From: a virus
DNA: 64,000 bases
Virus record (IMG/VR): IMGVR_UViG_3300006789_000016
Location: 1-64,000 of that record
Direction: 5' to 3' (one strand)
Below are positions 19,391 through 62,542 of this stretch, one piece after another. A program made the translations under genes and the position numbers. A model generated the notes under the pieces. That model was not told the origin of the DNA. It did no database searches and worked only from the letters and a program-made list of their open reading frames with translations. Position 1 is the first letter of the stretch; each line of letters begins with the position of its first letter.

Positions 19391-19695
19391 TGTCTCAAGA
19401 TGAATATTCAGAGATGGGCAAACAAATACTAAGAGCCGTTTTCACCTCAGCCGTTTTTGACTACAATAAATATGTTGTCAGAAAGCGCCTTAAGCCCAAA
19501 GAAGCATTAGCTTTCTCTACTGCAAGTCGTCTGTTATTTGACGATGATTATCGAATATTGTATGGGGACTGGGAGCTTTCTCTCGAAGAGCTTCTTTCTG
19601 TTATTAATGATAACAAAGAAGTAGATCTCGAAATAGTTAGAGAAAATATTATAAACAAGGCTTATCAGAGAAAATCAAGAAAAAAGAAAACATGA
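19390..19695 (+). CDS. Hypothetical protein (101 aa)
   Basis: The ATG shares its first base with the last base of the RNR stop codon. A helical, basic-tailed protein (KAYQRKSRKKKT) with no recognised motif. The stop overlaps the next start by 4 nt, so it is translated as part of the RNR-nucleotidyltransferase-RecA string. Confidence 0.62.
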   Translation: MSQDEYSEMGKQILRAVFTSAVFDYNKYVVRKRLKPKEALAFSTASRLLFDDDYRILYGDWELSLEELLSVINDNKEVDLEIVRENIINKAYQRKSRKKKT

Positions 19696-20261
19696 TTCCT
19701 CCAGTAAAAATTCTTAAAATTAAAGACGAGACTGAACTAATCTTAGAGCTTGGCTCAACTGAAATTAGTTTTGTAAATGGATGTTTTGAATTACCTCATA
19801 TGGGGTATGCAACATTCTTTTGTGAAGTCTTAGCTCAAGCGAACATGATGTCTCTTACTTTTAAAATAACAGAATTGAGAAATGCCAAATATACATTTGG
19901 ACATACCCTACTGATAGCTGTCAATGACGACGAGTCTTTCAGAAAAGTTCGAGGAACAAAACCACTTTACAAGTGGGATGAAAGAGTTGATACATTAATA
20001 TCTTGTCTTCAGGGACTTACTTCTAGGAATACTTTGTTTTCAGATATTGATAAAATTATTTTCTTTAAAATGGAAGAGACTAATCCCTGCAAATTACTTA
20101 GAGTAGTTCAGCCAGGTTATATCTATAAAGGCTCAGAATATAAATATAAACAAATTCCTGAGAAAAAAGTTATCAAAAGTTATGGTGGAGAAATTAATTG
20201 GATTAAAAATCCAGTCACAATACATGGCTCTGATATTAAAAAAAGAATTCTAGAAGGATAA
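19692..20261 (+). CDS. HldE/RfaE C-terminal-type cytidylyltransferase (ADP-heptose synthase-like)
   Basis: 189 aa. FVNGCFELPHMGY (residues 27-39) is the nucleotide-binding front of the RfaE/GlmU-like cytidylyltransferase fold (usually F.NGCFDLLHAGH). LLIAVNDDESFRKVRG, the downstream Arg-Glu-Arg-containing DERVDTLISCL and a later DKIIFF strand complete the family plan. In this family the enzyme joins heptose-1-phosphate to ATP. The second His of the HxGH motif is Tyr39 here, so activity is uncertain. Together with the GmhB-like (30432) and PfkB/HldE-like (34700) genes it forms the core of an ADP-heptose route. It overlaps 19390 and precedes recA by 2 nt. Confidence 0.8.
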   Translation: MIPPVKILKIKDETELILELGSTEISFVNGCFELPHMGYATFFCEVLAQANMMSLTFKITELRNAKYTFGHTLLIAVNDDESFRKVRGTKPLYKWDERVDTLISCLQGLTSRNTLFSDIDKIIFFKMEETNPCKLLRVVQPGYIYKGSEYKYKQIPEKKVIKSYGGEINWIKNPVTIHGSDIKKRILEG

Positions 20262-20263
20262 AA

Positions 20264-22429: not shown

Positions 22430-22432
22430 ATT

Positions 22433-26400: not shown

Positions 26401-26804
26401 CAGCAGAAGAAAGACGTGAGATTACTTTCGATCTTCTTCAAAAGGAAAAAGAAGTCTTGGGGTATTACCTTTCAATTCATCCAACTGATTTTGTTACTGC
26501 AACCAACAATACATCTCTTATCTTAGATGTTTGTAGGACAAGACAAAGAGGGTTTTTGAATGGTGTAATCTTACAAGCCAAAGAGATAACCACAAAGAAA
26601 GGTACTCGCATGGCATTCCTCACTGTGGAAGATGCTACCGGCCAAGCCGAAGTAGTTGTCTTCCCAGGAAAAGTTTTTAAACAATACAAAAAGGCGGTAA
26701 GTAATTCTCCTAAAGATAAAATTGTTAGGATAGAATTTACAGCTGAAGATATACAGCAAACGCCAATCAAACTAATAGCAGAGCGTATAAGAGGAGTAAA
26801 ATGA
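23493..26804 (+). CDS. dnaE: DNA polymerase III alpha subunit (DnaE)
   Basis: 1103 aa, near the bacterial length. The N-terminal PHP domain has HLHMHTEHSLLDG and MTDHGTLSG. The C-family polymerase core has GPGRGSAAGSL and the catalytic VDVDLDFP (Asp pair), with further landmarks GVFQLEDS, NAIGRPGPLDAG and YSLYGFNKSHS. A helix-hairpin-helix region and an OB-fold (GVILQAKEITTKKGTRMAFLTVEDATG) follow. No clamp, clamp loader or proofreading subunit is visible in the window. It overlaps the next gene by 4 nt (ATGA). It is the replicative polymerase of this phage. Confidence 0.95.
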   Translation: MNTPNFVHLHMHTEHSLLDGIIRVKQLPQAVKEMGMNAVSMTDHGTLSGALDFYKECTKANVKPLIGLESYTSKDRLLKQVDDLDQKYYHLLLLAQNEVGYKNLCQLVSTGNRDGYYYKGRLDDKLLEQYSEGLIATSTCLGGRIAQLYRRSSSAAAEKLIMYYADLFKDRFFLEIQHHPTEPEQVALNNFLLEVSSKYNIPPILSADCHYLKKSDGITNDSPHEQMLALNVGSTIHTEGRFSFDQRHHYVLPPEEVREICETNQWPLDLMTNTQHIADMCTGKYFTDCGVGSKMPEPLNIKVDSLTDLTKLGKWGLVNRFGSVNKVPEKYKARLNYELEVIHRMGYSNYFLIVKDLVDAIRKKGIAIGPGRGSAAGSLLNWALGITSKEADPIKHDLYFERFLNAARTDAMVDVDLDFPTSKRHLVFDYLKETYGEKGCAHLGTYQKFKARGLMWALARVQGHSIEYGKKLSKLVPEDHRGVSPTLEEAIEASPELLEHPKILSVAEKIEGMTSRAGVHASGYIVYNDDLGKYMPVYQKKDAKTKKPIMVTQMDMHDVEEMGFVKFDILGIQNLDVVSRTLDLVEKYHNVTIDLDAIDYHDDNVFALMREGRLAGVFQLEDSLRNITVRVQPTCLNDISVVNAIGRPGPLDAGLLDGYVLAKEHGLEGLKKWGKYGSDRMSELLWNLLPETYGLFIYQESVMRLLVEIAGFSLAEADLARRAMGKKKPEEMNKLKKRFVPGAIEKVNATEEEAETLWKLIQGYSLYGFNKSHSLTYSILGYQEAWLKKYYPVEFMTALLSEESDINKITKYISECKILGIKVEGPNVNKSLRHFSIEDDTIVFGLEAIKGMGRGAVTALLKARGSQPFKDISDLLSRVNLTKINSAKVEALTHAGALDCLGLGRQTILDHFKKITQYFRDLEKYGEKILRYKEREKEIKIALALREAGEKVNKPRILKKPELPEKPTIPAEERREITFDLLQKEKEVLGYYLSIHPTDFVTATNNTSLILDVCRTRQRGFLNGVILQAKEITTKKGTRMAFLTVEDATGQAEVVVFPGKVFKQYKKAVSNSPKDKIVRIEFTAEDIQQTPIKLIAERIRGVK

Positions 26805-28885: not shown

Positions 28886-29215
28886 ATGACACCACAAGAA
28901 AAACTAGAAGAGTTAATGGCCAAAGCCAATAATGGCGGAGGCCTTTCTTTAGAACAAATTGCACACATGACAAATGGCAATTACCTTGCAATCGAAGAGC
29001 TACAAAGTGCCTTTCAAAGTATGGCTCGAGATATGCTCATGATCTTAACTAATGCCCAGGGCATGCAGAAGATTCTTATCGACAAAGAATTTACCACAGA
29101 AGAAGAACTGAATAATACAATTACAAAAGTTCAGCTTGCTCTTGAAGAGGAGTGGAAAACAAAAAGACAAGAAAAAGAGACTACAGTAATAGATGATAGT
29201 GACCTGGAACTATAA
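28886..29215 (+). CDS. Hypothetical helical protein (109 aa)
   Basis: It begins at the base after the phosphoesterase stop and ends on the first base of the Cas4-like gene. Almost entirely helical and acidic (EELQSAFQSMARDMLMILTNAQ; LALEEEWKTKRQEK). A small partner or coiled-coil protein is possible. No family recognised. Confidence 0.65.
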   Translation: MTPQEKLEELMAKANNGGGLSLEQIAHMTNGNYLAIEELQSAFQSMARDMLMILTNAQGMQKILIDKEFTTEEELNNTITKVQLALEEEWKTKRQEKETTVIDDSDLEL

Positions 29216-34517: not shown

Positions 34518-34737
34518 TCCAGTCAATCATCCCGACCACTATAAAAAAGGTGGACTAGAATGCATAGATGTAATCGAGGGCCTGGGGCTTGGGTATCATT
34601 TAGGAAATGCCCTTAAATATATGTGGAGAGCAGGAGATAAAGACCCATCTAAATACGTAGAAGATTTAGAGAAATGTATTTGGTTTATACGGAGGCGCAT
34701 TGAGTATTACGAAAAAACGCATTCTAGTGATAGGTGA
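34510..34737 (+). CDS. DUF3310-type small phage protein
   Basis: 75 aa from ATG 34510 (GGAG 8 nt upstream). VNHPDHYKKGGLECIDVIEGL, LGNALKYMWRAGDK and VEDLEKCIWFIRRRIEYYE match the DUF3310 signature (NHP.HY..G..E.ID.I....F..GN..KY..R...K). Such proteins are widespread in phages and their role is unsettled. It overlaps the kinase gene by 38 nt. Confidence 0.85.
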   Translation: MSDPVNHPDHYKKGGLECIDVIEGLGLGYHLGNALKYMWRAGDKDPSKYVEDLEKCIWFIRRRIEYYEKTHSSDR

Positions 34738-35548
34738 TGGGATACAAGACACCTATCATACAGGAGATATCCTAGGTATTGCTAACGAAGACCCTGCATT
34801 AAAATTTAGACCAACAGGAATGGTAACAAAAAAGGGTGGAGCCGCATACTGTCAAGCACTTCTTCAATCGTTTCTGCCTGACTATGAGATAGAGCTATTC
34901 TTAACTAGCCATTCTCACATTCAACGCTTTGTTGATAACAAATACAAAAGAGTTGTTCTTACTGTAGATACAGAACCAGTAGAAAAGTATCCGTATGAGG
35001 TTATTGCAAATCATGCGTTGGAAAGATTTGTAAAGTCTTGGGACCCTAGTGTTCTTTATATATGGGACGACGACAGAACTCCATCTTTACCCTCTTGGGT
35101 TTTTCGACTTTCGGGACTAGATGCTCTTCCCGTTCGAGGAATTTATTTAGACTCTTCTAGGAAAAATACTTTGGGTTACCCTGTAGTTAGTTATAGAAAA
35201 GCCTCAGAAACTGAGAATATATTACCTCAGCAAAATGACCATCTTTTAATTACAACAAGTGCCTCCAAGGTAGAAATCATTAATGCATGGGCTCTAAATC
35301 CTTTCGCACGCAAAGGAACCTTAAGGCCTATCGATTACTTAGTTCCTAAATCAAATAAAATTGTCGACACATGTGGTGCAGGAGACACATTTTTCACTGC
35401 CTTCTGTGCAGCCAAAGAACAAGGAAAAGAGTTAGAAGAAGCTATTCATTATGCTATCAGTGCAGCCTCTTTGAGTATTGAACACAATGGCTGTTTCCTC
35501 CCATCCTTACAAGAAATAGAGGATAGACAATTAGAATATTATGGTTAA
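34700..35548 (+). CDS. PfkB-family kinase, HldE N-terminal-like (heptose-7-phosphate kinase type)
   Basis: 282 aa. It opens with RILVIGDGIQDTYHTGDILGIANEDPALKF, parallel to the HldE/RfaE kinase start (VLVVGDVMLDRYW...RISPEAPVPV), and has the catalytic DTCGAGDTFFTAFCAA of PfkB kinases (anion hole plus base Asp). HldE adds phosphate at C1 of heptose-7-phosphate. The usual fused cytidylyltransferase half is absent here but exists separately at 19692. The start is TTG with GGAGG close upstream. The next gene is a cupin sugar isomerase-like protein. Other sugar or nucleoside kinases of the PfkB family are possible. Confidence 0.8.
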   Translation: MSITKKRILVIGDGIQDTYHTGDILGIANEDPALKFRPTGMVTKKGGAAYCQALLQSFLPDYEIELFLTSHSHIQRFVDNKYKRVVLTVDTEPVEKYPYEVIANHALERFVKSWDPSVLYIWDDDRTPSLPSWVFRLSGLDALPVRGIYLDSSRKNTLGYPVVSYRKASETENILPQQNDHLLITTSASKVEIINAWALNPFARKGTLRPIDYLVPKSNKIVDTCGAGDTFFTAFCAAKEQGKELEEAIHYAISAASLSIEHNGCFLPSLQEIEDRQLEYYG

Positions 35549-35945
35549 AGTAGTTATGACAGATAAAAAAACAGACCCTTCATATGTTCAGCGCTTTGAA
35601 AAAACAAAAAATGTTCCCAAAAGATGGGGTTATGAATTATGGATAGCCAATTCCCACCTATATTGTGGAAAGCAATTAAACATATTCCCCCTATGTCAAA
35701 CCTCCTTGCATTTTCATGTAAATAAAACAGAACACATTTATGTTTCTTCAGGAACTATGACTCTTGAAGTAGCAAAAAAGGATGGTTCTGGCTTACAGAT
35801 TACAAGATTAAAACCAGGTGATTCAGTAATTGTCACTCCTGGACTAATGCATAGACTTAAAAATGAAAACAGTACTGAAGACCTAGTTCTTATGGAATTC
35901 AGCACACAACACTTTGATGAAGATAGTTATAGAGTACAAACATGA
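35541..35945 (+). CDS. Cupin, mannose-6-phosphate isomerase type II-like
   Basis: 134 aa; ATG 35541 overlaps the kinase stop, with a second ATG at 35556. PKRWGYELWIANSHLYCGKQLNI, SLHFHVNKTEHIYVSSGTMTLEV and LKPGDSVIVTPGLMHRL give the cupin metal-binding pattern (H.H...E; G...P....H). Such cupins isomerise or epimerise sugar phosphates or bind them. Adjacent to the HldE-like kinase, it may prepare its substrate. Precise reaction unknown. Confidence 0.78.
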   Translation: MVKVVMTDKKTDPSYVQRFEKTKNVPKRWGYELWIANSHLYCGKQLNIFPLCQTSLHFHVNKTEHIYVSSGTMTLEVAKKDGSGLQITRLKPGDSVIVTPGLMHRLKNENSTEDLVLMEFSTQHFDEDSYRVQT

Positions 35946-39484: not shown

Positions 39485-39630
39485 ATAACTACAAAAGAAA
39501 GTTTCCGCGTTTAACCTGGGAACAAAAAGAAGCTATTAAAGAATATTTTGCTGACAAAGGCGATGTCATTTCTATATTAAAAGCAATACGAAAGAAGAAG
39601 GAAACAATTCCAGCTGATGAAACTAAGTAA
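39481..39630 (+). CDS. Small basic protein (49 aa)
   Basis: A 49-codon frame whose ATG overlaps the IMPDH-like stop and whose end overlaps the primase-helicase start by 14 nt. Lys/Arg-rich and helical (WEQKEAIKEYFADKGDVISI). The tight two-sided overlap supports it. Function unknown. Confidence 0.6.
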   Translation: MNNYKRKFPRLTWEQKEAIKEYFADKGDVISILKAIRKKKETIPADETK

Positions 39631-50440: not shown

Positions 50441-50441
50441 A

Positions 50442-50693: not shown

Positions 50694-50696
50694 TTT

Positions 50697-51686
50697 CTAA
50701 GTATAGCATCCTAACTGTAATGCCGTTAAATCGCTGAGATACATTTCTCGAAGAAGATCTCTCCAACTATAGCTAGGAGTCCAATCCAGGATAGCTTCTG
50801 CTTTAGAACCATCGCCTTTAAGATATGGAACATCAGACGGCCGCATGTATCGCTTATCCATCCGATATACATCTTCATATTTGAGTTCTGCAAGTTCACA
50901 AACATACGCTAACATCTCCCTGATTGATACTGATTCACCAGTTGCAATCACAAAATCTTGAGGTTTATCTTCTTGAAGCATTAGGTGCATAGCTCTAACA
51001 TAATCTTTACTATGCCCTATGTCTCTGTATGCATCCATGTTACCCATATCTAGGCGATCTTGCAAGCCTAATTTTACAGAAGCAACACCTTTTGTGATCT
51101 TCCTTGGAGCAAAGTCTAATCCTCGTCTAGGTGACTCATGATTAAAAAGGATACCAGAACAGCAGTGAAGATCGTAGGCTTCACGATAGTTACGAACAGC
51201 ATAAAAGCTAGCAGCTTTAGCAACAGCATAAGGGGACCGGGGGTCGATGGGTGATTCTTCATTGTAGCCAGACTCAGGACATTTCATTCCTCCAAACAAT
51301 TCACTTGTTGCGGCAAAGTAAACCCTGGTCATAGGGCTCTCTTGTCTTACCGCTTCTAGTGCTCCAATAGTGGCCTCTGCGTCCACCCTGAAGGTCTGTA
51401 TTGGCTCTTTGAAGGACTGGCCGACATGGGACATGGCTGCAAGCAAATAAAGCTCTGTGGGCTGTATCTGGCGCATTAGAGACTGCATCTGAGCATGGTC
51501 ACATATATCACCAGGAACTAAATGAAGTTTAGGGTGTTCTTTAATAAGTTTAATATTATTAAAGTTATTCCCTGTGCTCACTCTGCGATATAATCCATAA
51601 ACATCGTAATCTTGTCCAATAAGATACTCTGCAAGATAACTGCCATCCTGGCCCGTCACCCCGGTAATCAACGCACGCTTCTTCAT
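50697..51686 (-). CDS. gmd: GDP-mannose 4,6-dehydratase
   Basis: 329 aa. Rossmann motif TGVTGQDGSYLAE; YGLYRRVSTG; LAAMSHVGQSF; FAATSELFGG; and SPYAVAKAAS (Tyr-xxx-Lys) in the extended SDR order. NHESPRRG and the YRDIGHSKDYVRAM segment are typical of Gmd. The enzyme turns GDP-mannose into GDP-4-keto-6-deoxymannose, precursor of fucose, rhamnose and perosamine. It overlaps the aminotransferase by 4 nt, so GDP-amino-sugar synthesis is plausible. Confidence 0.93.
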   Translation of the reverse strand: MKKRALITGVTGQDGSYLAEYLIGQDYDVYGLYRRVSTGNNFNNIKLIKEHPKLHLVPGDICDHAQMQSLMRQIQPTELYLLAAMSHVGQSFKEPIQTFRVDAEATIGALEAVRQESPMTRVYFAATSELFGGMKCPESGYNEESPIDPRSPYAVAKAASFYAVRNYREAYDLHCCSGILFNHESPRRGLDFAPRKITKGVASVKLGLQDRLDMGNMDAYRDIGHSKDYVRAMHLMLQEDKPQDFVIATGESVSIREMLAYVCELAELKYEDVYRMDKRYMRPSDVPYLKGDGSKAEAILDWTPSYSWRDLLREMYLSDLTALQLGCYT

Positions 51687-52783
51687 TCTGCCTCCACAGA
51701 GTTTACTGCTTCAACAACAAGATTTGCTTGTTCTTTTGTCATACAGGGATGAATTGGAAGAGAGATAAGGCGCTCAGATAGAGCTTCACAAACAGGTGTA
51801 GTTGCCGAACCAAAGAGCCCAGTCTCAGATAATGCCTCAGGATAATGATAGCCAAAAGCAATGTCAGCATTTGTCAAAGCAATTGCCACATGGTCACGAT
51901 GCTTAGGGCTATCACAGCGATATTCATAGAGATGATAAACATGAGTTGATCCTACTTGTTTCCCAGGCGACCGGTGTTCAAATGCATTGTCATATATCTT
52001 CGCCACTTCTTGTCTCTTCTTGTTCCATCCATCTAGAGCCCCCAGAGCATGGAATAACTGAGCTGCCTTGATTGTGTCAAGTCGAGAATTGCCTCCTAGG
52101 ATTTTATGCTCATATTTCTTTTGGGCGCCCTGGTTGATCCAGGTACGAACATAATTAGCAATCTCTGTATTGTCTGTTAAAACAGCTCCACCCTGTCCTA
52201 TAGTACCAAGGTTCTTGGCAGGATAAAAGGATGTTGTGGCGGCATCTGCATAAGCTCCTAGGTGTTGTTTATTAAAAGTTGCTCCCAGTGACTGCGCGCC
52301 ATCTTCTATTAAATAAACTCCATGAGCCCAACACAGATCTTTTAGTTTAGCCATGTCTGGCCTTTGACCATAAAGAGATACAGCGACAACAGCAAGAAAT
52401 TCACCTTTCCTAAAAGCAAGATGATTTCTTACAGAATCTATATTAATTAGATATGTATTCGGATCAACGTCAACAAAGACAGGCTCTAGTCCAGCCTGTA
52501 CAGCAGCGTAGGCAGTTGCAATAAAAGTATTATTTGGCATTAATACTTTTTTTCGCTTAAGACTACCAGGAAGAGAAGAGAACACAATCCGCAAGGCATC
52601 CGTTCCATTTCCTACACCAACTACATGTTTGCATCCAGTATAGTCTTCAAGAGCATTCTCAAAACGTTTAAGATATGATCCTCCAACAAACTGACAAGTA
52701 TGAAGAATATCTAGAACATCTTTATCAATTGCATCCTGTATCTCTTTATACTGTCCGGGTAGATTTACAAAGTTAACTTTCAT
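51683..52783 (-). CDS. DegT/DnrJ/EryC1 sugar aminotransferase
   Basis: 366 aa. VNLPGQYKEIQDAIDKDVLD and VVGVGNGTDALRIVFSSL at the front, LIEDGAQSLGATF with the cofactor Asp, and FYPAKNLGTIGQGGAV containing the PLP Lys. The family transaminates keto-sugar nucleotides. Next to gmd it may make GDP-perosamine or a 3-amino analogue; next to a Gfo/Idh dehydrogenase and acetyltransferases it could also serve a WbpE-like 2,3-diamino route. The exact position of amination cannot be told. Confidence 0.9.
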   Translation of the reverse strand: MKVNFVNLPGQYKEIQDAIDKDVLDILHTCQFVGGSYLKRFENALEDYTGCKHVVGVGNGTDALRIVFSSLPGSLKRKKVLMPNNTFIATAYAAVQAGLEPVFVDVDPNTYLINIDSVRNHLAFRKGEFLAVVAVSLYGQRPDMAKLKDLCWAHGVYLIEDGAQSLGATFNKQHLGAYADAATTSFYPAKNLGTIGQGGAVLTDNTEIANYVRTWINQGAQKKYEHKILGGNSRLDTIKAAQLFHALGALDGWNKKRQEVAKIYDNAFEHRSPGKQVGSTHVYHLYEYRCDSPKHRDHVAIALTNADIAFGYHYPEALSETGLFGSATTPVCEALSERLISLPIHPCMTKEQANLVVEAVNSVEAE

Positions 52784-52798
52784 TTTGATTATAGAATC

Positions 52799-53203
52799 CT
52801 ATTCTCGAAGAAATCCAGTTTTTTGGGTTCTTCCTTTTAGATGTTTATTAAAAAATACCAAGTCTGTTCTGTTCCACTTCTTATAACGTCCATGATTTAC
52901 CAATCTCATCTTCTTTATTACTTTGTCTTGACCGCCATGCTTTTTAATTATATTTTTATTAAGATGGACTATATAGTTTCTTACTAATAGTTTTCCTAAC
53001 CTTTCGTATTCTACAAAAGGAATGCTTCTTTGATATCTGCTCGAAACAAGATCTATCAGTCGTAAAAAACTATGATGTTTTGTAAAGATATATGATTCGC
53101 CTCGCTGACCAACAATTTTTGGATGACTAAAGATTACATTTGCCATGTATGTAGTCCCTGATCGCCCGTGGCCGCCAATAATAATTGGTGCTTTTGGTGG
53201 CAT
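52799..53203 (-). CDS. Short sulfotransferase-like protein (134 aa)
   Basis: ATG at 53203 with AAGGAG 6 nt upstream. GGHGRSGTTYMANVIFSHPKI is the PAPS-binding loop of sulfotransferases. The protein stops at about half the family length, and no C-terminal half follows in another frame before the next gene, so it is either a minimal version or a decayed one. It overlaps the upstream gene's stop (TGATG). Confidence 0.68.
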   Translation of the reverse strand: MPPKAPIIIGGHGRSGTTYMANVIFSHPKIVGQRGESYIFTKHHSFLRLIDLVSSRYQRSIPFVEYERLGKLLVRNYIVHLNKNIIKKHGGQDKVIKKMRLVNHGRYKKWNRTDLVFFNKHLKGRTQKTGFLRE

Positions 53204-54108
53204 CACTTACTCCTTGCTGCTTTTAATACTTGTTCTTTGTGAGCATAATCTCTTTCATTTACAATTCTTATATCACATAATTGTCCAGATTCTGGAAGTA
53301 CCAATACATCTAAAAGATTAAAGTCTTTGTCATATAGATTGATAGCAGAATCTCCACTCTCTCGATCTTCTCTAGATTTGCACTCTGAAACTCCGACGAT
53401 GTAGCAATCTCTTGTGACAGCAAAACCACGTAACCAGGCGCCCTTGCCCAAGAATCTTTCTCTTTGTTTCTTTGTGTTTTGCTCAGTCCATAAAACTCTC
53501 CCATCATGAGAGCTAAAGGTTAAAATCTCACTACCTTCTCTGTAAACATTATGAGCTGCATAGCCAGCTGTAAAGCTATCTACTTCAGTCAAATTCTTGT
53601 CAAGAATAACTATACGGCTTTTACGCTTAAGCTTCTTTTCTGTTCTTGTATTGAAATGAAGTCCAGCAGGACAATAGCCTACTTGGTTATGTTCAACAAC
53701 ATAAAAAAGTTCTTCTTCTTTGTCATACCAAATGGAATTAAAATGATTAAGGTCATTGCCTGTTGGTCGCCAACTAACTGGATCAAAAGCGCCATGCCGA
53801 TATATGTAAAGAGAATTCGTCCCACTGTCTACTACTATTAGACTTCCTTCAAGATGAATCACTTGGTGATGGTGAGTTCCAGGTAAGTCTAATTCGTGTT
53901 TCTTTTTAAAGCTATGGTCCATGACCAAAAGCTTTTCGCTTTTTGTGGCTATTTTATCTTGGTTCTCTCTTGCAACAACATAAAGATTATCTTTATCCCA
54001 AGACATACCATAATAAAGCCCCTGTCCTGTTAAGACAGGAACTATCTGTTTGTCCTGAATATGATAAACAGCTTGAGCCGTTGACACTAAAAAACTAGGC
54101 CACTTCAT
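53203..54108 (-). CDS. Beta-propeller-like protein (301 aa)
   Basis: ATG at 54108 (AGAGG about 10 nt upstream) is preferred to TTG 54117. Repeating blade-like pairs can be seen: GLYYGMSWDKDNLYVVARE, HHHQVIHLEGSLIVVDSGTN, NHFNSIWYDKEEELFYVVEH, LRGFAVTRDCYIVGVSE and CDIRIVNERDYA. This suggests a five- or six-bladed propeller. No catalytic motif recognised. It may bind or process a carbohydrate in the cluster. Confidence 0.68.
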   Translation of the reverse strand: MKWPSFLVSTAQAVYHIQDKQIVPVLTGQGLYYGMSWDKDNLYVVARENQDKIATKSEKLLVMDHSFKKKHELDLPGTHHHQVIHLEGSLIVVDSGTNSLYIYRHGAFDPVSWRPTGNDLNHFNSIWYDKEEELFYVVEHNQVGYCPAGLHFNTRTEKKLKRKSRIVILDKNLTEVDSFTAGYAAHNVYREGSEILTFSSHDGRVLWTEQNTKKQRERFLGKGAWLRGFAVTRDCYIVGVSECKSREDRESGDSAINLYDKDFNLLDVLVLPESGQLCDIRIVNERDYAHKEQVLKAARSK

Positions 54109-54706
54109 CCTTATCAAACCTCTTGTTCACTAGAAGCTTACCTGTTGATTCCATCTCAGAAAGATATTTTTCTACAATATCATCTGTAAAATTGAGATTG
54201 CAGTCAATTCCAATTCTATCTTCCAGCGGTACTTCGCCAACCCTGACTGCTGGACAGCCAAGATAAATGCCACCCTCTTCGCAATCTTTAACCACTACCG
54301 CGCCCGCACCAACGATAACGTCCTTGCCAATAGTAATACCAGACACAAGGGTTACACTGCCACCAATGATAGCACCTGATTTAATGTGAACACCACGAGA
54401 AATTTTCTTTACATTGCGTTGAAAAGAAACATTCTTCTCATGAATAATCATTATGCCAGGACCAATAAAAACTTTGTCTTCTATGACAGTCCCTTGTGTA
54501 ATGCAAGACATTCTTTTGATATGAACATCATTTCCAATCAATACAGTTTCTGAGGTGTTGCAGTAGTCGTCAAATTTTACATTGTTCCCAATGCGAGTTC
54601 CAGAATGAAGCTTACAAAAGTCTCCAATCTTTACATCGTCACCAAGAACAACATCATTGTCGATAACTGTATATTTTCCTGCTCTTGTATTCTTTCCTAT
54701 TTTCAT
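54095..54706 (-). CDS. Left-handed beta-helix acyltransferase, copy 1
   Basis: 203 aa. Hexapeptide repeats ([IV]-G-x-x-x-x) run through the first 160 residues (VVLGDDVKIGDFCKLHSGTRIGNN), ending VIVGAGAVVVKDCEEGGIYLGCPAVRVG. Family members N- or O-acetylate sugar nucleotides. A C-terminal helical extension with a Lys-rich end is unusual. It overlaps the copy-2 gene by 4 nt. Confidence 0.85.
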   Translation of the reverse strand: MKIGKNTRAGKYTVIDNDVVLGDDVKIGDFCKLHSGTRIGNNVKFDDYCNTSETVLIGNDVHIKRMSCITQGTVIEDKVFIGPGIMIIHEKNVSFQRNVKKISRGVHIKSGAIIGGSVTLVSGITIGKDVIVGAGAVVVKDCEEGGIYLGCPAVRVGEVPLEDRIGIDCNLNFTDDIVEKYLSEMESTGKLLVNKRFDKDEVA

Positions 54707-55350
54707 TCAAACACCCACCTTTTAAGCACTGCCGGAACACCAGCAACAAGAGTTCTTGAAGCAACCGACTTAGTGACAACAGCACCAGCTGCTACTATTG
54801 CATTTTCTCCTATTTCAACACCAGGGAGAAGCGAACTGTTTTGTCCAATTCTAGCCCCTTTTTTAATAACAGGGCCAGCACTAGTCCATTCTTTTCCTTG
54901 AGGCGCTAACCTACCCATAGAGTTGTCGTTGGCACACATCGTTCCTTGTCCAATGAAGACACCATCTTCAATAGTCATGTTGCCAGAAATATTGCATAAA
55001 TCCATGATTTTTACTTTGTTGCCAACAGTAGTTTTGAATCCAATTTTTGCATTCATTCCAACAATACAAAATTTACCAAGAACACAATGATCTCGGAGCT
55101 TGGCGCCATCACCGATAAGAGTATTAGCTCCTACATAACAACCATGGTAAATAGTTGCTCCAGCCCCGATTACACAGTTCTCTTCAATATAAGTAGAAGT
55201 TAATTCTGTGCTGGGCTTTCGGCTAGTTGCACCAGAGGGAACTTTCGGCGGCTTTCCAATTACAGCAAAAGGACCGACTGACACGTTCTCACCCATAACA
55301 ACACCTTCATAAATATAACAAGGAATCCCTTTCCATTCTGTTAGTATCAT
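54703..55350 (-). CDS. Left-handed beta-helix acyltransferase, copy 2 (WbpD/FdtC-like)
   Basis: 215 aa. Hexapeptide repeats with VVMGENVSVGPFAVIGKPP, a CVIGAGATIYHGCYVG series and closing GVEIGENAIVAAGAVVTKSV. The SMGRLAPQGKEW loop before the last coils is like the acyl-CoA-binding region of N-acetyltransferases acting on amino sugars, so it is the best candidate to acetylate the product of the 51683 aminotransferase. Confidence 0.85.
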   Translation of the reverse strand: MILTEWKGIPCYIYEGVVMGENVSVGPFAVIGKPPKVPSGATSRKPSTELTSTYIEENCVIGAGATIYHGCYVGANTLIGDGAKLRDHCVLGKFCIVGMNAKIGFKTTVGNKVKIMDLCNISGNMTIEDGVFIGQGTMCANDNSMGRLAPQGKEWTSAGPVIKKGARIGQNSSLLPGVEIGENAIVAAGAVVTKSVASRTLVAGVPAVLKRWVFE

Positions 55351-56207
55351 TAAATTTCTCCATGAGCTTTTAGTACTTCTAATATAAATTCAGCACGTTG
55401 TAGATAGGTGTGGTGGCACAACATATGCTTATAAGCCTTTTGTCCTAACTCTATTAAATCTTTTGGATATCTAGAATAATATTCTAAAGCGGGCTTTAGT
55501 TTAACAGATTCAATATAGTGTTCGTTTGGAGTAAAAAGTTCGCGTAAACCTTTGTGTGGGTATGTCAACACAGAAACTTGGCAACTAAAACTATCAAAAT
55601 ATCTTATTGGAACACCTGGCTTGCCCTCTTTCCAGAGATAATCATTCCAAATACCTATAGAGGCTAAGCTTTTAGATAAATGCCTGAATCTTTCTCTGTG
55701 GTAAAGATGGGGAGGAATGTTTCCCATAAGTTTATACATCCCTCCAATATCTTTCTTTATTTCTCTGTGAAGTACTCCGCGCAATGTGTCTTCTTTGCTT
55801 TTATCCTTAGCAAGGAGAACAAAATCAGATCTTTTTTTAGCGACCATCCATCCTCGCTGTAGACCAGCAAAGGGAAGGTAAAAACTATTTTTGACTTCGC
55901 GACGAGTTGTAAAATAATACTTTATTCCTCGTCGCCCACGAGCTAATTCGTGGCTAGCTTCCTTCTCCCAAAATATACAGATATGTTTTTTCTTTAATTT
56001 CTTTAAAATATTTGTAGGAGGTAATGTCGAAGGACAGGGGAATATAATTAGATCAATATTTCTTGCTTTGAGCCATCTTGATAATTTCTCATAAGGAAGT
56101 CCTAGCACTTCGTTGTGGCAGTGATAAACATTGTGCCCAAGAAGAGTAAAGCCACAACCTAATGCCTTCTCCAAAGGTCTTGTATGGCCAATAAGTATAT
56201 TTAACAT
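55350..56207 (-). CDS. CgeB-like glycosyltransferase (GT-B fold)
   Basis: 285 aa. A short N-terminal Rossmann half (MLNILIGHTRPLEKALGCGF) and a C-terminal part with VPIRYFDSFSCQVSVLTY and LFTPNEHYIESVK, then LGQKAYKHMLCHHTYLQRAEFIL, as in CgeB/Glyco_trans_1_2 proteins. The acceptor and donor are unknown. It overlaps the dehydrogenase gene by 7 nt. Confidence 0.75.
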   Translation of the reverse strand: MLNILIGHTRPLEKALGCGFTLLGHNVYHCHNEVLGLPYEKLSRWLKARNIDLIIFPCPSTLPPTNILKKLKKKHICIFWEKEASHELARGRRGIKYYFTTRREVKNSFYLPFAGLQRGWMVAKKRSDFVLLAKDKSKEDTLRGVLHREIKKDIGGMYKLMGNIPPHLYHRERFRHLSKSLASIGIWNDYLWKEGKPGVPIRYFDSFSCQVSVLTYPHKGLRELFTPNEHYIESVKLKPALEYYSRYPKDLIELGQKAYKHMLCHHTYLQRAEFILEVLKAHGEI

Positions 56208-57130
56208 TTCTTTAATATATCTTCAATATCTCCAACAACCCTCATTCCAAGACTCCCTGGAGAAACAAAAGGTTTATCTAATAAAATCCAATCTGCAAAT
56301 TCATCAACAAGCAAAGCCAATGGCTCTTTAACTTCTCCTTCATAAATAGACATCCAACTATAACGATGGGCCATGTCTCTATCAATACCAACAATGGCTT
56401 TGTCGTAAATAATAAGAGGAGAGTCAGACAACATGTCATACTCAATCATCCCATTAGTTCCGACTACAGTTGTTGTTCTGTCTTTCTTCGGGTTTAACCA
56501 GCTTAAATCTAATCCATAAGTCATCCCAGTTTTGTATTCTATATGGATAGTTGCTGTATCAACAACATCATTCTGTAGATGAGTTCCAGAAACTACAGCC
56601 GAGACTTGAAAGTCAGAACCAAAAAGATAATCCATAACGGCTAAGTCATGTGGTGCTAAATCCCAGATAACTCCAGACAATTGGAACTTACCAAAATTAA
56701 GACGTCTAGAAACTACATGAAGAATATCCCCAATTTTTCCAGCTTGAATTAATTTTCTAAGTTGTCTTATATGTGAACTAAACAAAAATGTATGATCTAC
56801 GCCTAATTTAAGATTCTTTTCAGCGGCCAGCCGGACAAGGGCTTGTGCATCTTTTAGGGTTGTTGTTAGTGGCTTTTCTACAAGGACATGTTTTCCTGCC
56901 AACAAGGCTTCTTTTGCCACACTATAGTGGGTTTCGGGAGGAGTAGCAATAACAACAGCATCGAAGTCTCTCATGGCCAATGCATCTTTTAAAGACTTTT
57001 CTTCCCTCTCTTCTTCGCCTGCTTGCATATCAACCAAAGCAGTCACTTTTATTCTGCTATTTTTTTCTAAATTTCTAAGTAACTTTGGGCCCCAATATCC
57101 TTTATGTCCTACAAGACATATACTTAACAT
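56201..57130 (-). CDS. Gfo/Idh/MocA-family sugar dehydrogenase (WlbA-like)
   Basis: 309 aa. NAD-binding start SICLVGHKGYWGPKLLRNL; DAVVIATPPETHYSVAKEALLAGKHVLVEKPLTTTLKDA is the family signature (EKP with catalytic Lys); WDLAPHDLAVMDYLFG is the second half. In WbpB/WlbA routes such enzymes oxidise C3 of UDP-GlcNAc derivatives so that a DegT enzyme and a WbpD-type acetyltransferase can follow, all three of which are in this cluster. Confidence 0.88.
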   Translation of the reverse strand: MLSICLVGHKGYWGPKLLRNLEKNSRIKVTALVDMQAGEEEREEKSLKDALAMRDFDAVVIATPPETHYSVAKEALLAGKHVLVEKPLTTTLKDAQALVRLAAEKNLKLGVDHTFLFSSHIRQLRKLIQAGKIGDILHVVSRRLNFGKFQLSGVIWDLAPHDLAVMDYLFGSDFQVSAVVSGTHLQNDVVDTATIHIEYKTGMTYGLDLSWLNPKKDRTTTVVGTNGMIEYDMLSDSPLIIYDKAIVGIDRDMAHRYSWMSIYEGEVKEPLALLVDEFADWILLDKPFVSPGSLGMRVVGDIEDILKKC

Positions 57131-57979
57131 TTAAACTCCTAACTTATAGTTTTCGATTATTTTTAAATAAGCTTTAGCCATTTTGAATGCCGACCATTTT
57201 TTATAGACTAACTCTAAACATTTATTAGAGCAGTAAGTATAAAAATCTTTATCTGTACTCAGTTCTTCTAAACAAACAACAGCGTCTTCTATTTTCTTGA
57301 AAGCAAGACTATTGAGTATAGGATGAAGAGAAATTAACTTTTTGTTTCTGGGATGAAGTAGTGTTACTACAGGCAAACCACAAGCCATGGCTTCTTTTGG
57401 AGCTAAACCAAGAGAGTAGCTTAGAACAAATACTTTGCTTTTCCAATAAAAATTCCTCACTCCATCTTTCTCTACTGCGGGTATATCATACCCTACCAAA
57501 GGAATTTCCTTAAATTTTTGCATTTCTTTTAAAAGATCAATTCTCTTTTGGTCATAGCGTGCTTTGTTCCAAATATCAGCACAAGAAATAAACCCAAATC
57601 TCGAAGTCACCGAAGGTCTCCAAAAGTTTAGATCTATACCATTGGGAATGTGATGGATACCTTTTTTGGGCTGACAAAGCATACCACCCTCAAGGGATGA
57701 ACGCTCATCAACAATGATAATTGGTCGATGAGTTGTAGGCAATCGATGATCAAGAGACCATCGGTTATGATCAATTAACAAAACATTTTGCAGATCAATT
57801 AACTTTCCTGCCTCTACAAAAGTAATAGAAGCAATGATTAAGTCATAAGGAGAGAGGTCTAAATCAAAATCTTTCGGAGTGGCAGGGTTGACAGTTATGT
57901 CCATTAGTCCAAGAGAATAAAAACCTTTAGCTAAATAATCACCCCAGGTGGGATGATGCGGAAGAATCAATATATTCAT
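57131..57979 (-). CDS. Glycosyltransferase, GT4-like
   Basis: 282 aa. IHHIPNGIDLNFWRP and LGLAPKEAMACGLPVVTLL are the C-terminal GT4 hallmarks (E-x7-E region), and IIIVDERSSLEGG lies at the domain junction. It is shorter than typical GT4 (about 350 aa) with a reduced N-domain. It abuts the dehydrogenase gene and overlaps the GT2-like gene by 4 nt. Confidence 0.82.
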   Translation of the reverse strand: MNILILPHHPTWGDYLAKGFYSLGLMDITVNPATPKDFDLDLSPYDLIIASITFVEAGKLIDLQNVLLIDHNRWSLDHRLPTTHRPIIIVDERSSLEGGMLCQPKKGIHHIPNGIDLNFWRPSVTSRFGFISCADIWNKARYDQKRIDLLKEMQKFKEIPLVGYDIPAVEKDGVRNFYWKSKVFVLSYSLGLAPKEAMACGLPVVTLLHPRNKKLISLHPILNSLAFKKIEDAVVCLEELSTDKDFYTYCSNKCLELVYKKWSAFKMAKAYLKIIENYKLGV

Positions 57980-58788
57980 ACATTAAACTTCCACTTCTTT
58001 TTTCTTTTAATCCAAGAAACGATAACCTTTGGGTGAGATCCTGCAAAAGTCTGTGTTTTAAGACTACCTGGATTATAGACAAAACTTGACTGAATGTATC
58101 TTTTATTGCGAAAAGAACGATAGTTCGCATTCTCTACAGCAAACTGTTTCTTTAGTTTTTTCCCCATAGCTTCCGCGTCTCTGCACCAACCGTAATGGTT
58201 TACAAAAGCAGATACTTTTTGTACATCGGCGCGAGCATAAAACTTTTCTGTATTGATATCAATATTATCAACACCAACAGCTACATGAGAACAGCCAGGC
58301 CTAGCAATAAACCTTACTTTTTGATTTCGACGAGTAAGCTTTGAACGCTCTTGATACCATTTAGTGTCTATCACTTGTTTTTGTGCTTTCACCCCAAAGA
58401 AATGCCTAAACTTAAATACAAAATAATTTTTATCTCTTCTTTTACTTATCTCTATTATCTTTTTTGCTGTCTTTGAGGGCACTACTTCGTCAGCATCTGC
58501 TCTCCAAATCCATTCGCTTGTACAGGCCCGCAAAATCCGAGTTCTTAGTTTAGATTCAGTAGAGCGGTTTAACGCCCAAGGATGCCGCAAAATAACAAAT
58601 CGTCCATTTGGCTGAACTTGATAAAACTCTTCTTGAAGATCTAACAACAACTCTAATGTATTATCAATAGAGTGTGCTTCCAAAATGACTATCTCATTAG
58701 AAAAAGCAAAAAGAGATCGTATAGCTGCTTGCATTGGATAGTCAAGAATCTCCACATCCCTAACCCACATTACTGAACTAACAGACAT
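57976..58788 (-). CDS. Glycosyltransferase, GT2-like
   Basis: 270 aa. The GT-A core includes SNEIVILEAHSIDNTLEL and the metal/nucleotide site WIWRADADEVV (DxD), followed by a basic C-terminal half with several aromatic residues. It is an inverting-type family by pattern. The last residues are very basic (SWIKRKKKWKFNV). Confidence 0.78.
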   Translation of the reverse strand: MSVSSVMWVRDVEILDYPMQAAIRSLFAFSNEIVILEAHSIDNTLELLLDLQEEFYQVQPNGRFVILRHPWALNRSTESKLRTRILRACTSEWIWRADADEVVPSKTAKKIIEISKRRDKNYFVFKFRHFFGVKAQKQVIDTKWYQERSKLTRRNQKVRFIARPGCSHVAVGVDNIDINTEKFYARADVQKVSAFVNHYGWCRDAEAMGKKLKKQFAVENANYRSFRNKRYIQSSFVYNPGSLKTQTFAGSHPKVIVSWIKRKKKWKFNV

Positions 58789-58794
58789 AAGTGA

Positions 58795-59133
58795 TTACTT
58801 TACTTCAAATTCAGCATCAACCTTGTCATACCAAGTCACTCCTTCACGAACTAAACCAAATCTTATTTCGTATTTTCCTGACAATAAAGAAAGATCAGCT
58901 GCTTCAAAAGAAGTGCGATAAACCACTGTTTCTCCAGCAGGAACAGTATCTGCCCTAACTAGCCCTACCCTATAAGGTATCTTTATTTCCTTGTCTCCAA
59001 CAAGATGTCTTATACGACAAGGCCTAATCAGTAATTTACTTTTGCTCTGATCTTGACCAGTAGTATTGTCTAGCTCAAGAATAAAGAAGAATTTATTCTT
59101 TCGACGATAAGCTTTGATTACTTTGAGTTTCAT
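58795..59133 (-). CDS. Small beta-sandwich protein (112 aa), carbohydrate-module-like
   Basis: KYEIRFGLVREGVTWYD near the end, with paired strands (IRHLVGDKEIKIPYRVGLVR, GETVVYRTSFEAADL), resembles the Ig-like modules that accompany polysaccharide transport or glycosyltransferase proteins (PG.Y.L.F.LV.EGV.WF). It could bind glycan. It sits between two GT genes. Confidence 0.62.
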   Translation of the reverse strand: MKLKVIKAYRRKNKFFFILELDNTTGQDQSKSKLLIRPCRIRHLVGDKEIKIPYRVGLVRADTVPAGETVVYRTSFEAADLSLLSGKYEIRFGLVREGVTWYDKVDAEFEVK

Positions 59134-60512
59134 AAGTCCATAACCTCGATAAGCCTCTTGGCAGAAAGATCATAATTCTCATTCTTCCTAACCCATTGAG
59201 CGGCTTTCTTTCCTTTTTTAAATGCCTCTCTTTTGTGAGAGACAATATGACGCATTTGTTCTACTAAATCATCAGTATTAATTTTAGCATACTGACCAAA
59301 ATCATCTGATCCATTATTGTGTGATCTTAAGAATTTAGGCAAGTCAGCTCGTTGTAAGCCACTTGGATTCACCCAATAAGCGATATCATCCTTGCATATT
59401 TCTGTAAGAGAAGACCAGTTACAAAGAATAACGGGGAGTCCCGTGCACATAGCCTCTCGTGGAGGTAGGCCATAGCCCTCTCCGTTAGAGGGAAATAGGA
59501 AACAGTCGGCCCGGTGCATTAGACTCACCAATTCTTTATGCGGCAACCTTGCATCTATAACCTCAACATTGCTTGGCAAGTTAGGCTTGTTTCCTCCCCA
59601 CCCTCCGCTGATTTTTAAAATAAGCTTCACATCTGTTCTATTCCCAAAAGCTCTTTTGAATGCTGCCAACGTCAGAGGGTAGTTCTTCCTAGAGTTAGAC
59701 CAATGCGCATTAGCTAGCAAGAGAAACTCAAAGGGTTTATCTCTCTTTGCTCTATTCTCACACATAGGCCATATCTTATGATTTACCCCCAAGGGAACTT
59801 TGTGGATAGGAACTTTTACCCCTGCGTCTTTGAAAATCTTTTTACAAAAGTCAGAAGGAACAATAAGGTGATTAAACTTATTGTTAATTCTACCGGCCCA
59901 GGCGCTAGGAACCTTTGTCGTTTCGAACATTGTGAGAATATATTTCTCTGCTCTTTGACATTTTCCATGCGTCCTGGTTATAGCTGGAGTATGATATAAA
60001 AGATATTTCTTGTAAAGGAAGTTTCTTTCATTAACCAACTCATGGAATTTTGCACTAGCTAAATGATTGTTATTCCTACGTGTAGGGACAAATGACATAG
60101 AGATATGTGCACGATCCAGAGCGAGAACTAATTGCTCTGTACTATTTCCATAACCATCACAAGGGTCGAACACTCCTTCAAATACCAATCCTTTCTCCAG
60201 AGGAGCTACAGATTGATCCATAAAGGCGTGGCCTAGTTCTTTACACAAAGCCGTATAGACATCCTCTACATCTTTTCCATTCTTCAAGCATCTTGAATAG
60301 TCAATTACATATCCAAAACGTTGTCTTTTGAATCCCATAAGAGGGATAATCCCTATCCCAGGATATTTTTGAGGTAAGCCCGGTGCTGGGTTGGCGAGAG
60401 CAAAATGCCAACTATACCTAGAGGTTTCCTCTTTTATCTTGTTAATAGCTGCAAAATAAATTTTATATAGTTCTGGGTTTTGTTTAGGAAATTGAATAAC
60501 TACTTTTTTCAT
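59130..60512 (-). CDS. Glycosyltransferase, GT4 family
   Basis: 460 aa. HKVPLGVNHKIWP, FEFLLLANAHWSNSRKNYPLTLAAF, ADCFLFPSNGEGYGLPPREAMCTGLPVI and a terminal amphipathic helix make a complete GT4 C-domain. The N-domain is long and includes FEGVFDPCDGYGNSTEQLV. Retaining-type transferase by family. It overlaps both neighbours by 4 nt. Confidence 0.88.
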   Translation of the reverse strand: MKKVVIQFPKQNPELYKIYFAAINKIKEETSRYSWHFALANPAPGLPQKYPGIGIIPLMGFKRQRFGYVIDYSRCLKNGKDVEDVYTALCKELGHAFMDQSVAPLEKGLVFEGVFDPCDGYGNSTEQLVLALDRAHISMSFVPTRRNNNHLASAKFHELVNERNFLYKKYLLYHTPAITRTHGKCQRAEKYILTMFETTKVPSAWAGRINNKFNHLIVPSDFCKKIFKDAGVKVPIHKVPLGVNHKIWPMCENRAKRDKPFEFLLLANAHWSNSRKNYPLTLAAFKRAFGNRTDVKLILKISGGWGGNKPNLPSNVEVIDARLPHKELVSLMHRADCFLFPSNGEGYGLPPREAMCTGLPVILCNWSSLTEICKDDIAYWVNPSGLQRADLPKFLRSHNNGSDDFGQYAKINTDDLVEQMRHIVSHKREAFKKGKKAAQWVRKNENYDLSAKRLIEVMDL

Positions 60513-62542
60513 TTTAAAGTCAAAAGCTTTTGAGCTGTAACAACAAAGGTCTCTGCCACTGCAGAGTCTACTGTTTGCAACAACTCTTTCTTAATTGTAA
60601 CGAGTTCATCATTATAAAGATATCCTTCAGAGGCAATGTCAAAAGCTGTCCCCAATTCTTCGAGATCAAATCCCTCGACTTGACCAAGGACTTTCTTTGT
60701 TTCAGAATAAAAAACATTATGAAGTTCTGTATTTCCCTGTAAGAAATAAGAAGCGTTAAAGGGCATGTCCAGCTTTTTGAGTGCTGGAGAACTTATCGTA
60801 GGCTTTCCATATAGCATTGCTTCTTTCAAGTAAGTACCCAAGTGAACATCATCTAATTGAATGTAAACATCAATCCCCCTAAACCATTTATGCATAACTG
60901 CTCTATTGGTCAAAGGAACAACATTAACAGAAGGACTTACAAAAGGTGCTTCGCCCGATGCCAAATCCTGTAATAGTGTTAACTGAAGGTCTTTCCATCC
61001 ACACTTTTTTGTTCCCTTTATTAAATCCTGTAACCTTGATCTTGAAACATTCTTAACAACACTACCCACTACAAGCTTGTTTTTGGTTGGGTTGTGAATT
61101 CGAGAAAGACTAACATTTAAAGGTAGGTCTACTACATAGATTGGCTTAGAAACTCCTGCGTCGATAATTAAAGACTCTGCATATTTAGATGTCACAAACA
61201 ATGCATCATAGTCTCGAGTTAATCGATTGATTGCTTCTCGAGAAAGCTTCCTCTCTTCTATTAGTACAAAAGCAAATCGCAGTAATCCCTGCGCTGGCAT
61301 TGCATAGTTCGTACGAACAAGAGTGGAGGTTTTAAACACATCAACAACCAAGGCATCCTTGTTGTTTTGGGATGGATTAAGAGAAGCCTTGAAGCCTATC
61401 TTCTTGAAGATCTCCTTTAGAGATTCTGCAAGATAACCTGTTTCAAAATCTGGCTCAATCAGAGTGAAGATATCGATAGGTATTTTCTTATCAAGAATAG
61501 TTACTAGATCTTTATCTAGTCTAGATTCAATCGCCTGGCCGACTTCTTGATAGGTAATTCCTTTCATACAAGCAATATTGATTGAGCACGGCTTGTAGAA
61601 ACACCCAGCACATGGAAGGTCACTAAATACAGCAGTTGCATTTTTGTAATGATTCAGCCGAGCCATGGGAGGAGTAGAACCGAAGACCCCTACAATATCT
61701 TTTTCAAGCGCACCTGCGATATGAAGCATCCCTGAGTCAGGGCCAACAAAAAGACTACAGGCATTTACTAATGCAGACTTCGCTCTTAGGTCAAACTGAG
61801 AAACATCCCATGTGTTCTTATAGTCCCAGGTCCTACCCAGTCTTTTATTATGATCGTTAACAAGGAATTTTAAATCATTTCTGATGCTATTCAAATAACC
61901 AATAAGATGGACATACTTTCCAACAGGCCATGTCCGGCGAGGGTCAACAGAAGCAATATCTAAGAAAACTAATTTAGTGCCATTGAGTTTGCCAAACTGT
62001 TTCTTCAGGATTTTCCCCACCCATTCCTTTTCTTTTTTAGATACAATGTAAGTAGGCTTCTTGTTCGGAAGCCTAATCCCTACATAATCTGCAAACAAAT
62101 CAATACGATTGCGAGGATATAAATTCTTGTTTTCATGGGTAAGGCCCGCTGTCGTAATATCAGAAAAGAAATGGTAATCTTCTCTATTGACTTTTTGGAA
62201 ATCAACAACATGATCTATATGAGGATTCTCTTTAAGAAGATCGCTCAAAACTCCAGGCTGTGTAGCATATGTCGTTTCACAGTTGGGGTAGAAATGCTTA
62301 AAAGCCTCCAAGACAGGAGTTGACATAATGATATCACCGATACCGCCTAGCTTTCTCTGAATACAAACCTTAACAATAGATTGATCTCCTCCTAGTTGAG
62401 GAACAGAATTCTTTTGTTGAAAGTTCGGACGCTTTTGAGCCTTTCCTCTTCCACCATTTGTGACAACGGGGATTTGCTTTCTTGTTGGACGAGCTACTCC
62501 TCGACCACCGATACGTCTATTCTTTCTAAATACATTTCCCAT
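60509..62542 (-). CDS. GT9 (heptosyltransferase-family) protein fused to a second GT-like domain
   Basis: 677 aa. Residues 1-50 are a basic disordered tail (RKNRRIGGRGVARPTRKQ). Residues about 58-345 are GT9: KLGGIGDIIMSTPVLEAFKHFYP, VDPRRTWPVGKYV, LFVGPDSGMLHIAGAL and VGVFGSTPPMARLN. From about 355 to the end a GT-B-like domain follows (LVVDVFKTSTLVR, VSKPIYVVDLPLN, HLGTYLKEAMLYGKPTI). GT9 enzymes move ADP-heptose to LPS core or other acceptors, which ties this protein to the window's ADP-heptose genes. It lies next to the structural gene. Confidence 0.85.
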   Translation of the reverse strand: MGNVFRKNRRIGGRGVARPTRKQIPVVTNGGRGKAQKRPNFQQKNSVPQLGGDQSIVKVCIQRKLGGIGDIIMSTPVLEAFKHFYPNCETTYATQPGVLSDLLKENPHIDHVVDFQKVNREDYHFFSDITTAGLTHENKNLYPRNRIDLFADYVGIRLPNKKPTYIVSKKEKEWVGKILKKQFGKLNGTKLVFLDIASVDPRRTWPVGKYVHLIGYLNSIRNDLKFLVNDHNKRLGRTWDYKNTWDVSQFDLRAKSALVNACSLFVGPDSGMLHIAGALEKDIVGVFGSTPPMARLNHYKNATAVFSDLPCAGCFYKPCSINIACMKGITYQEVGQAIESRLDKDLVTILDKKIPIDIFTLIEPDFETGYLAESLKEIFKKIGFKASLNPSQNNKDALVVDVFKTSTLVRTNYAMPAQGLLRFAFVLIEERKLSREAINRLTRDYDALFVTSKYAESLIIDAGVSKPIYVVDLPLNVSLSRIHNPTKNKLVVGSVVKNVSRSRLQDLIKGTKKCGWKDLQLTLLQDLASGEAPFVSPSVNVVPLTNRAVMHKWFRGIDVYIQLDDVHLGTYLKEAMLYGKPTISSPALKKLDMPFNASYFLQGNTELHNVFYSETKKVLGQVEGFDLEELGTAFDIASEGYLYNDELVTIKKELLQTVDSAVAETFVVTAQKLLTLK

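Follow-up and report, generated by a model that had tools for sequence, protein, structure and literature searches.

The window analysed here, a 64,000-base stretch of DNA from a marine phage (bases 1-64000 of the 74,561-base virus record IMGVR_UViG_3300006789_000016), carries genes resembling those of ADP-heptose synthesis together with a small cupin gene that starts inside the kinase gene of the set. A preliminary description of this DNA had listed three separate heptose-type genes and a GT9 open reading frame (ORF), all of which we found where it had placed them (Table 1); the cupin was not among them. We favor, with moderate confidence, the reading that this phage carries a route to ADP-D-glycero-D-manno-heptose that lacks GmhA and has the cupin as its isomerase. 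Slightly more firmly, we propose that the cupin is a second, unrelated family of sedoheptulose-7-phosphate isomerase that has replaced GmhA in many marine phages and some archaea, the pathway being split here over separate genes. The cupin is probably a GmhA replacement with a cupin fold, because, in the samples taken, the two occur almost exclusively of each other in viruses and in archaea and because the kinase is found fused to either one.

The preliminary description had reported neither GmhA nor HldD, and wider searches agree with it. The same phage is present in a second record, 151,482 bases long (99.98% identity over 74,140 bases), in which the kinase, phosphatase, nucleotidyltransferase and cupin genes are identical base for base. 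GmhA gave no match to TIGR00441 at E ≤ 1 in the 74.6-kb, 151-kb and 81.5-kb records, nor to PF13580 in the latter two, and HldD gave none to TIGR02197 at E ≤ 0.01 in the 151-kb record, all of these records being fragments. The missing GmhA would be explained by the cupin, which probably performs that step.

An association of the cupin with heptose-type genes was seen in other viruses. A query alignment built from cupins of cyanophage-type cassettes (see below) yielded 69 genome loci and at least 579 viral loci, of which the best 80 were analyzed; for GmhA, the best 80 of 209 viral loci were taken. Each viral cupin locus was a fetched stretch with up to 8 kb on each side. An HldE-N-like kinase was present in 61 of the 80 viral cupin loci, an HldE-C-like nucleotidyltransferase in 55, a small HAD protein in 56 and GmhA in none. 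The viral GmhA loci contained a kinase in 13 of 80 cases, and the cupin accompanied none of these 13. Taking both samples together, viral loci with an HldE-N-like kinase comprise 61 with the cupin, 13 with GmhA and none with both; GmhA locus L280 holds a cupin and GmhA without a kinase. Fifty of the 80 viral cupin records, that of the window phage included, were also searched whole, and GmhA (TIGR00441, E ≤ 0.001) was absent from all 50.

A similar pattern was observed in 194 genomes of one archaeal phylum (that of G059), the archaeal metagenome-assembled genomes (MAGs) being incomplete. Using cut-offs of E ≤ 1e-15 for the cupin, E ≤ 1e-25 for HldE-N and E ≤ 1e-12 for GmhA, we detected the cupin in 21 genomes, HldE-N in 51 and GmhA in 54. 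The 51 archaea with HldE-N divide into 13 with the cupin only, 28 with GmhA only, two with both and eight with neither (Fisher p 2.9e-5), and restriction to kinases of at least 200 bits gave 11, 21, 2 and 7, respectively (p 5e-4); these p-values overstate independence because the archaeal genomes are related, which tempers the case. Gene fusions point in the same direction. The kinase is joined in one frame to GmhA in L220, L221 and L222 (527, 512 and 560 residues) and to the cupin in L163, L203, L226 and L227, as well as in L205, where the kinase part is incomplete. The L163 kinase reaches 342 bits against the TIGR02198 cut-off of 345. A gene encoding a nucleotidyltransferase fused to GmhB adjoins both GmhA fusions (L220, L222) and cupin fusions (L203, L205), and L170 encodes GmhB, cupin and HldE-C in one frame. 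In L203 two genes thus carry all four domains, the cupin taking the place that GmhA has in relatives. Two further cellular loci, L115 and L173, have the kinase and nucleotidyltransferase as a single, HldE-like ORF with the cupin within a few kb.

The cupin itself has features expected of a sugar isomerase. Residues H57, H59, K62, E64 and H104, which comprise the metal ligands (HxH, Glu and a distal His) and a Lys, are invariant across 53 aligned sequences. The motif HxHxxKxE is present in 148 of 151 ORFs matched by the cupin profile; of the other three, two are ORFs truncated ahead of it and one is a distant cupin. In the phmmer alignments shown, the sugar isomerase 3kmh carries this motif too, whereas oxalate decarboxylase and quercetinase are without its Lys. 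A structure model of the window protein (predicted local distance difference test score 91) matched D-lyxose isomerase in VIA-align with Z 14.8 and 26% identity, the highest identity among the neighbors listed. Chemically, heptose 7-phosphate and sedoheptulose 7-phosphate are interconverted at C1-C2, with a manno configuration, just as mannose 6-phosphate and fructose 6-phosphate are. For the solved D-lyxose isomerase of Thermofilum (H75, H77, K86, E88, H143), the proposed catalytic residues are the Glu that binds the metal, as proton acceptor, and a Lys two positions ahead of it, as enediol stabilizer (PMC8378251). Based on this motif, the fold neighbors, that published mechanism and the shared chemistry, we infer an isomerase role for the window cupin.

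In the proposed route, the metal-dependent cupin would turn sedoheptulose 7-phosphate into heptose 7-phosphate, a seven-carbon counterpart of the isomerization between mannose 6-phosphate and fructose 6-phosphate. The HldE-N-like kinase would then phosphorylate C1, the GmhB-like phosphatase would remove the C7 phosphate and the HldE-C-like enzyme would adenylylate the product to ADP-D-glycero-D-manno-heptose. If these remaining steps work, the D,D form is the expected product because no HldD was found. The GT9-type transferase may place the sugar on virion or host glycans.

Support for the kinase, phosphatase and nucleotidyltransferase steps came from comparing each protein with 18,950 NCBIfam models. 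A heptose family was the best curated model for each gene, as the preliminary description would have it, although all scores fell far below the curated cut-offs. The nucleotidyltransferase matched TIGR02199 (rfaE_dom_II) with E 2e-20 and 73 bits (cut-off 181.5), and the top model outside the two HldE ones reached only 14.5 bits. Its structure model retains the fold, with HldC (5xf2, E 2e-9) as the top Foldseek match, and 5x9q was its sole phmmer match in PDB at E ≤ 0.01. The phosphatase matched NF050049 (GmhB) with E 1e-23 and 84 bits (cut-off 250), compared with 75 for a histidinol-phosphatase domain model. It has the HAD DxDG motif as LDRDG, scores 63.5 bits to K-12 GmhB versus 33.9 to HisB-N, and has as its top PDB matches 3l8e and 2gmw, both titled D,D-heptose 1,7-bisphosphate phosphatase. 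The kinase, which contains the PfkB catalytic GAGD (VDTCGAGDTF), matched TIGR02198 (rfaE_dom_I) with E 1e-12 and 47.8 bits (cut-off 345), compared with 38.1 for the ribokinase model. An HldE-N profile built without the window sequence gave the window kinase 90.9 bits and K-12 RbsK, PfkB, PsuK and FruK 44-58, and an RbsK/PsuK profile gave the window kinase 22 bits.

Related cassettes in cyanophages link these genes to the cupin. A tblastn search of 50,697 phage records with the window kinase gave 13 matches, all at 21-26% identity, from six Synechococcus, four Prochlorococcus and three marine virus records; in the six records that we opened, the match falls on the kinase gene of a cassette of the heptose type. 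The order nucleotidyltransferase, kinase, small HAD, cupin is found in P-SSM2, S-CAM3, S-T4 and three marine virus records, with extra genes inserted in S-T4 and L018. An HldD homologue adjoins the cassette in P-SSM2 and S-CAM3 (TIGR02197, 191 and 179 bits). The small HAD protein is annotated as "phosphoheptose isomerase" in three cyanophage genomes (YP_214542.1, YP_009321371.1 and YP_009810867.1; L014, L015 and L016). We considered whether these proteins are GmhA and rejected this, as they are HAD phosphatase-like sequences and all three complete genomes are without a TIGR00441 match. The P-SSM2 protein, the only one run against NCBIfam, best matched the capsule phosphatase model TIGR01689 (35 bits). 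Judging from these sequences, the label looks wrong.

Several observations weigh against the proposed role of the cupin. The samples of viral loci are ranked and biased, and in 13 of the 80 cupin loci the fetched stretch holds none of the three partners (kinase, nucleotidyltransferase and small HAD). A kinase was found in 15 of the 69 genome loci and none of the three partners in 54, and therefore the cupin family is wider than the heptose pathway or the partners are located elsewhere. Among archaea, eight of the 51 genomes with HldE-N have neither enzyme, and six of the 21 with the cupin are without HldE-N. Whole-MAG searches for GmhA covered ten of the 15 kinase-bearing genome loci; the other five (L134, L149, L152, L156 and L172) resemble viral contigs binned with cells. 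Among the ten, a GmhA-like protein was present elsewhere in three (84-236 bits), weak matches in four (18-35 bits) and none in three. Host GmhA could also be the source of the first step. It is conceivable, if rather unlikely, that the cupin serves the heptose pathway as an anomerase or epimerase acting on an intermediate, while a host enzyme isomerizes sedoheptulose 7-phosphate. The top VIA-align neighbor of the cupin model, the epimerase CapF (Z 17.6), speaks for such a role, being slightly ahead of archaeal phosphomannose isomerase (Z 16.4), as do KdgF (Z 14.9) and the occurrence of both the cupin and GmhA-like proteins in two HldE-N archaea and the three MAGs. However, the near-exclusive occurrence of cupin and GmhA, and the cupin's position in the kinase fusions, fit replacement better than an additional step, and in the two exceptional archaea the GmhA-like matches, at 87 and 117 bits, are not neighbors of the kinase.

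The remaining doubts concern the substrate and activity of the other enzymes. The signature of the window nucleotidyltransferase is HMGY rather than HxGH, so that the second histidine is lost, a roughly 20-residue insert follows the signature and the STT motif is missing. The window GmhB is without the zinc-binding Cys/His loop, which reads CPHH...CDCRKP in K-12 and WYHAWDTASPDYKPS, without those cysteines, in the window; the loop is present in GmhB of K-12, L107, L163 and L170. The preliminary description had asked for a phylogeny of the kinase, and its outcome was mixed: the tree supports the HldE side (Shimodaira-Hasegawa-like approximate likelihood ratio 93) with a very long window branch, but approximately unbiased (AU) tests accept ribokinase placements (p 0.75 and 0.63), and trees constrained to join the window kinase with ribokinases lie 3.5-6.4 log units above the free quick tree. 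Its phmmer matches in PDB are ribokinases and adenosine kinases, with no heptose kinase listed. The HMGY signature, the missing STT motif and the very long, ambiguously placed kinase branch, together with scores well below every curated cut-off, would suit enzymes that have diverged to another sugar phosphate and make a different activated sugar. We nevertheless regard such divergence as improbable, since a heptose model is best for each gene, the independent profile favors the window kinase over the K-12 PfkB kinases by more than 30 bits, and, although the nucleotidyltransferase (21-27%) and kinase (22-27%) are only distantly identical to their cyanophage-cassette counterparts, the overlapping cupin reaches 40-44% identity with six cassette cupins of cyanophage or marine-virus records. 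That the nucleotidyltransferase is inactive, and that the other genes draw on or alter the host heptose phosphate pool, seems to us very unlikely. Both signature histidines are present in 68 of 68 relatives from the cupin loci (67 HxGH and one HxAH), and the window genes are dispersed, but the ORF is intact and identical in the second record, and the modeled fold with its HldC match is retained. A chance meeting of unrelated PfkB, HAD and nucleotidyltransferase genes is hardly credible: the genes lie 4-15 kb apart and the kinase is distant from every kinase compared, but the three genes independently indicate one pathway, and the kinase overlaps a cupin tied to that pathway elsewhere. The earlier proposal of an ADP-heptose pathway thus gains from the like set with a cupin in cyanophages, many viral contigs and some archaea and loses from the HMGY signature and the absent zinc loop. 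The pathway of the window phage may be complete, partial or altered. The adjective "dispersed" was only partly right because the kinase and cupin genes share bases and because relatives carry the set in compact form. Two full viral cassettes (L095 and L096), which include the small HAD, have near them a GmhB-like protein that, like the window GmhB, is without the zinc loop.

Table 1. Features of the window discussed in the text
Feature	Position	Strand	Basis or content
HldE-C/HldC-like nucleotidyltransferase (heptose-1-phosphate adenylyltransferase-like)	19692..20261	+	TIGR02199; Foldseek HldC
GmhB-like HAD phosphatase (heptose-1,7-bisphosphate phosphatase-like), without zinc loop	30432..30938	+	NF050049; PDB matches
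HldE-N-like PfkB kinase (heptose-7-phosphate kinase-like)	34700..35548	+	TIGR02198; GAGD; TTG start after GGAGG
Cupin, PHROG 7851, 134 residues, proposed sedoheptulose-7-phosphate isomerase	35541..35945	+	phrog_7851 6e-28; overlaps kinase by 8 bp
Glycan cluster	50697..60512	-	Gmd-like dehydratase, DegT/PseC-like aminotransferase, two NeuD-like acyltransferases, Gfo/Idh dehydrogenase, glycosyltransferase, genes without family match
GT9-domain glycosyltransferase, candidate heptose-donor user	60509..62542	-	PF01075 1e-15; TIGR02193 2e-15

With regard to use of the product, the GT9 protein scores 58.1 bits to PF01075, above the gathering score of 22, and its second half gave no Pfam match at E ≤ 1; its gene adjoins tail genes. 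The preliminary description had named it as the product's user. Membership of the GT9 family was borne out, but the protein is only a candidate because GT9 enzymes are not restricted to heptose donors. In the glycan cluster, the Gmd-like dehydratase (TIGR01472, 339 bits; cut-off 415) and the DegT/PseC-like and NeuD-like genes at 50697-55350 suggest by their sequence families a second phage-made sugar, of the GDP-4-amino-6-deoxy type.

The 151-kb record contains nearly all of the 74.6-kb record and adds 47.6 kb ahead of the window and 29.3 kb beyond the 74.6-kb end, the latter encoding chiefly tail-like proteins as judged by reading. The match of the GT9 gene in this record is not exact. The phage genome was judged incomplete because we recognized no capsid or terminase gene in the ORFs that were read beyond the window. 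None of the 1,358 phage records matched by DNA polymerase III reached 60% identity, and these matches do not place the phage. As judged by reading, translations also show intein-like insertions, with Hint-type start and end signatures, within a metallophosphoesterase-like protein (26801-28885) and a primase/helicase-like protein (39617-43324), and the translation of 9165-9593 resembles an archaeal/eukaryotic-type peptidyl-tRNA hydrolase (Pth2). In the reverse complement of the 151-kb record (L006-L013), ten small ORFs of 102-163 residues at about 10.9-30 kb have, by eye count, a common (F/Y)(Q/K)GxGxY pattern, followed in many by HS, and the appearance of an expanded paralogous family. Proteins predicted from the first 6-7 kb of the same strand are proline- and arginine-rich, unlike the remainder, and this contig end may be foreign or non-coding.

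Heptose genes of phages have been published as annotations, including a kinase, "phosphoheptose isomerase" and epimerase in SynMITS9220M01 and rfaE in pelagimyophages (PMC7378029, PMC7029224). Two papers describe GmhA as a drug target and as the enzyme that opens the synthesis of nucleotide-activated glycero-manno-heptose (PMC5387315, PMC11056994). We found no proposal of a cupin in the heptose pathway or as a sedoheptulose-7-phosphate isomerase in the open-access literature, whose long result lists were covered in part, and within that literature the cupin member of the pathway appears new. If a cupin does take GmhA's job, a gap in the heptose pathways of phages and archaea would be closed, a mislabel that recurs in phages (the small HAD named phosphoheptose isomerase) would be put right, and a phage pathway would be seen to begin at a central metabolite. 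Cyanobacterial lipopolysaccharide is reportedly without heptose (PMC4390846), and therefore where cassette-bearing cyanophages put the sugar becomes a testable question.

Compared with the bacterial ADP-heptose pathway (GmhA, HldE, GmhB and HldD of E. coli K-12), the window phage has kinase, phosphatase and nucleotidyltransferase steps that are alike by family resemblance; however, no GmhA or HldD was found, a cupin is present and HldE is split in two. The cyanophage cassettes of P-SSM2, S-CAM3 and S-T4 are similarly phage-borne, with HldE-C-like, HldE-N-like and cupin genes and glycan genes nearby. Their genes lie together, in contrast to the dispersed genes of the window, their phosphatase is a small EcbF/BcbF-type HAD rather than a GmhB-like protein, and the HldD adjacent in P-SSM2 and S-CAM3 has no counterpart detected in the window phage. 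With cupin aldose-ketose isomerases (D-lyxose/D-mannose isomerase and archaeal phosphomannose isomerase), the window cupin has in common the cupin fold, HxH, Glu and distal His, and the Lys two residues before the Glu is found in the D-lyxose isomerases seen as well as in the window cupin family. Unlike these isomerases, the family has its own conserved WGxExWxxN...CGK and ExSTxHxxxDxxR positions, overall identity is low, and the stretch from HxH to KxE is longer in the Thermofilum enzyme. Finally, the Woesearchaeota-type kinase-cupin and kinase-GmhA fusions are cellular and fused, whereas the window genes are phage-borne and separate, yet they comprise the same domain set as the window, with the cupin where GmhA sits.

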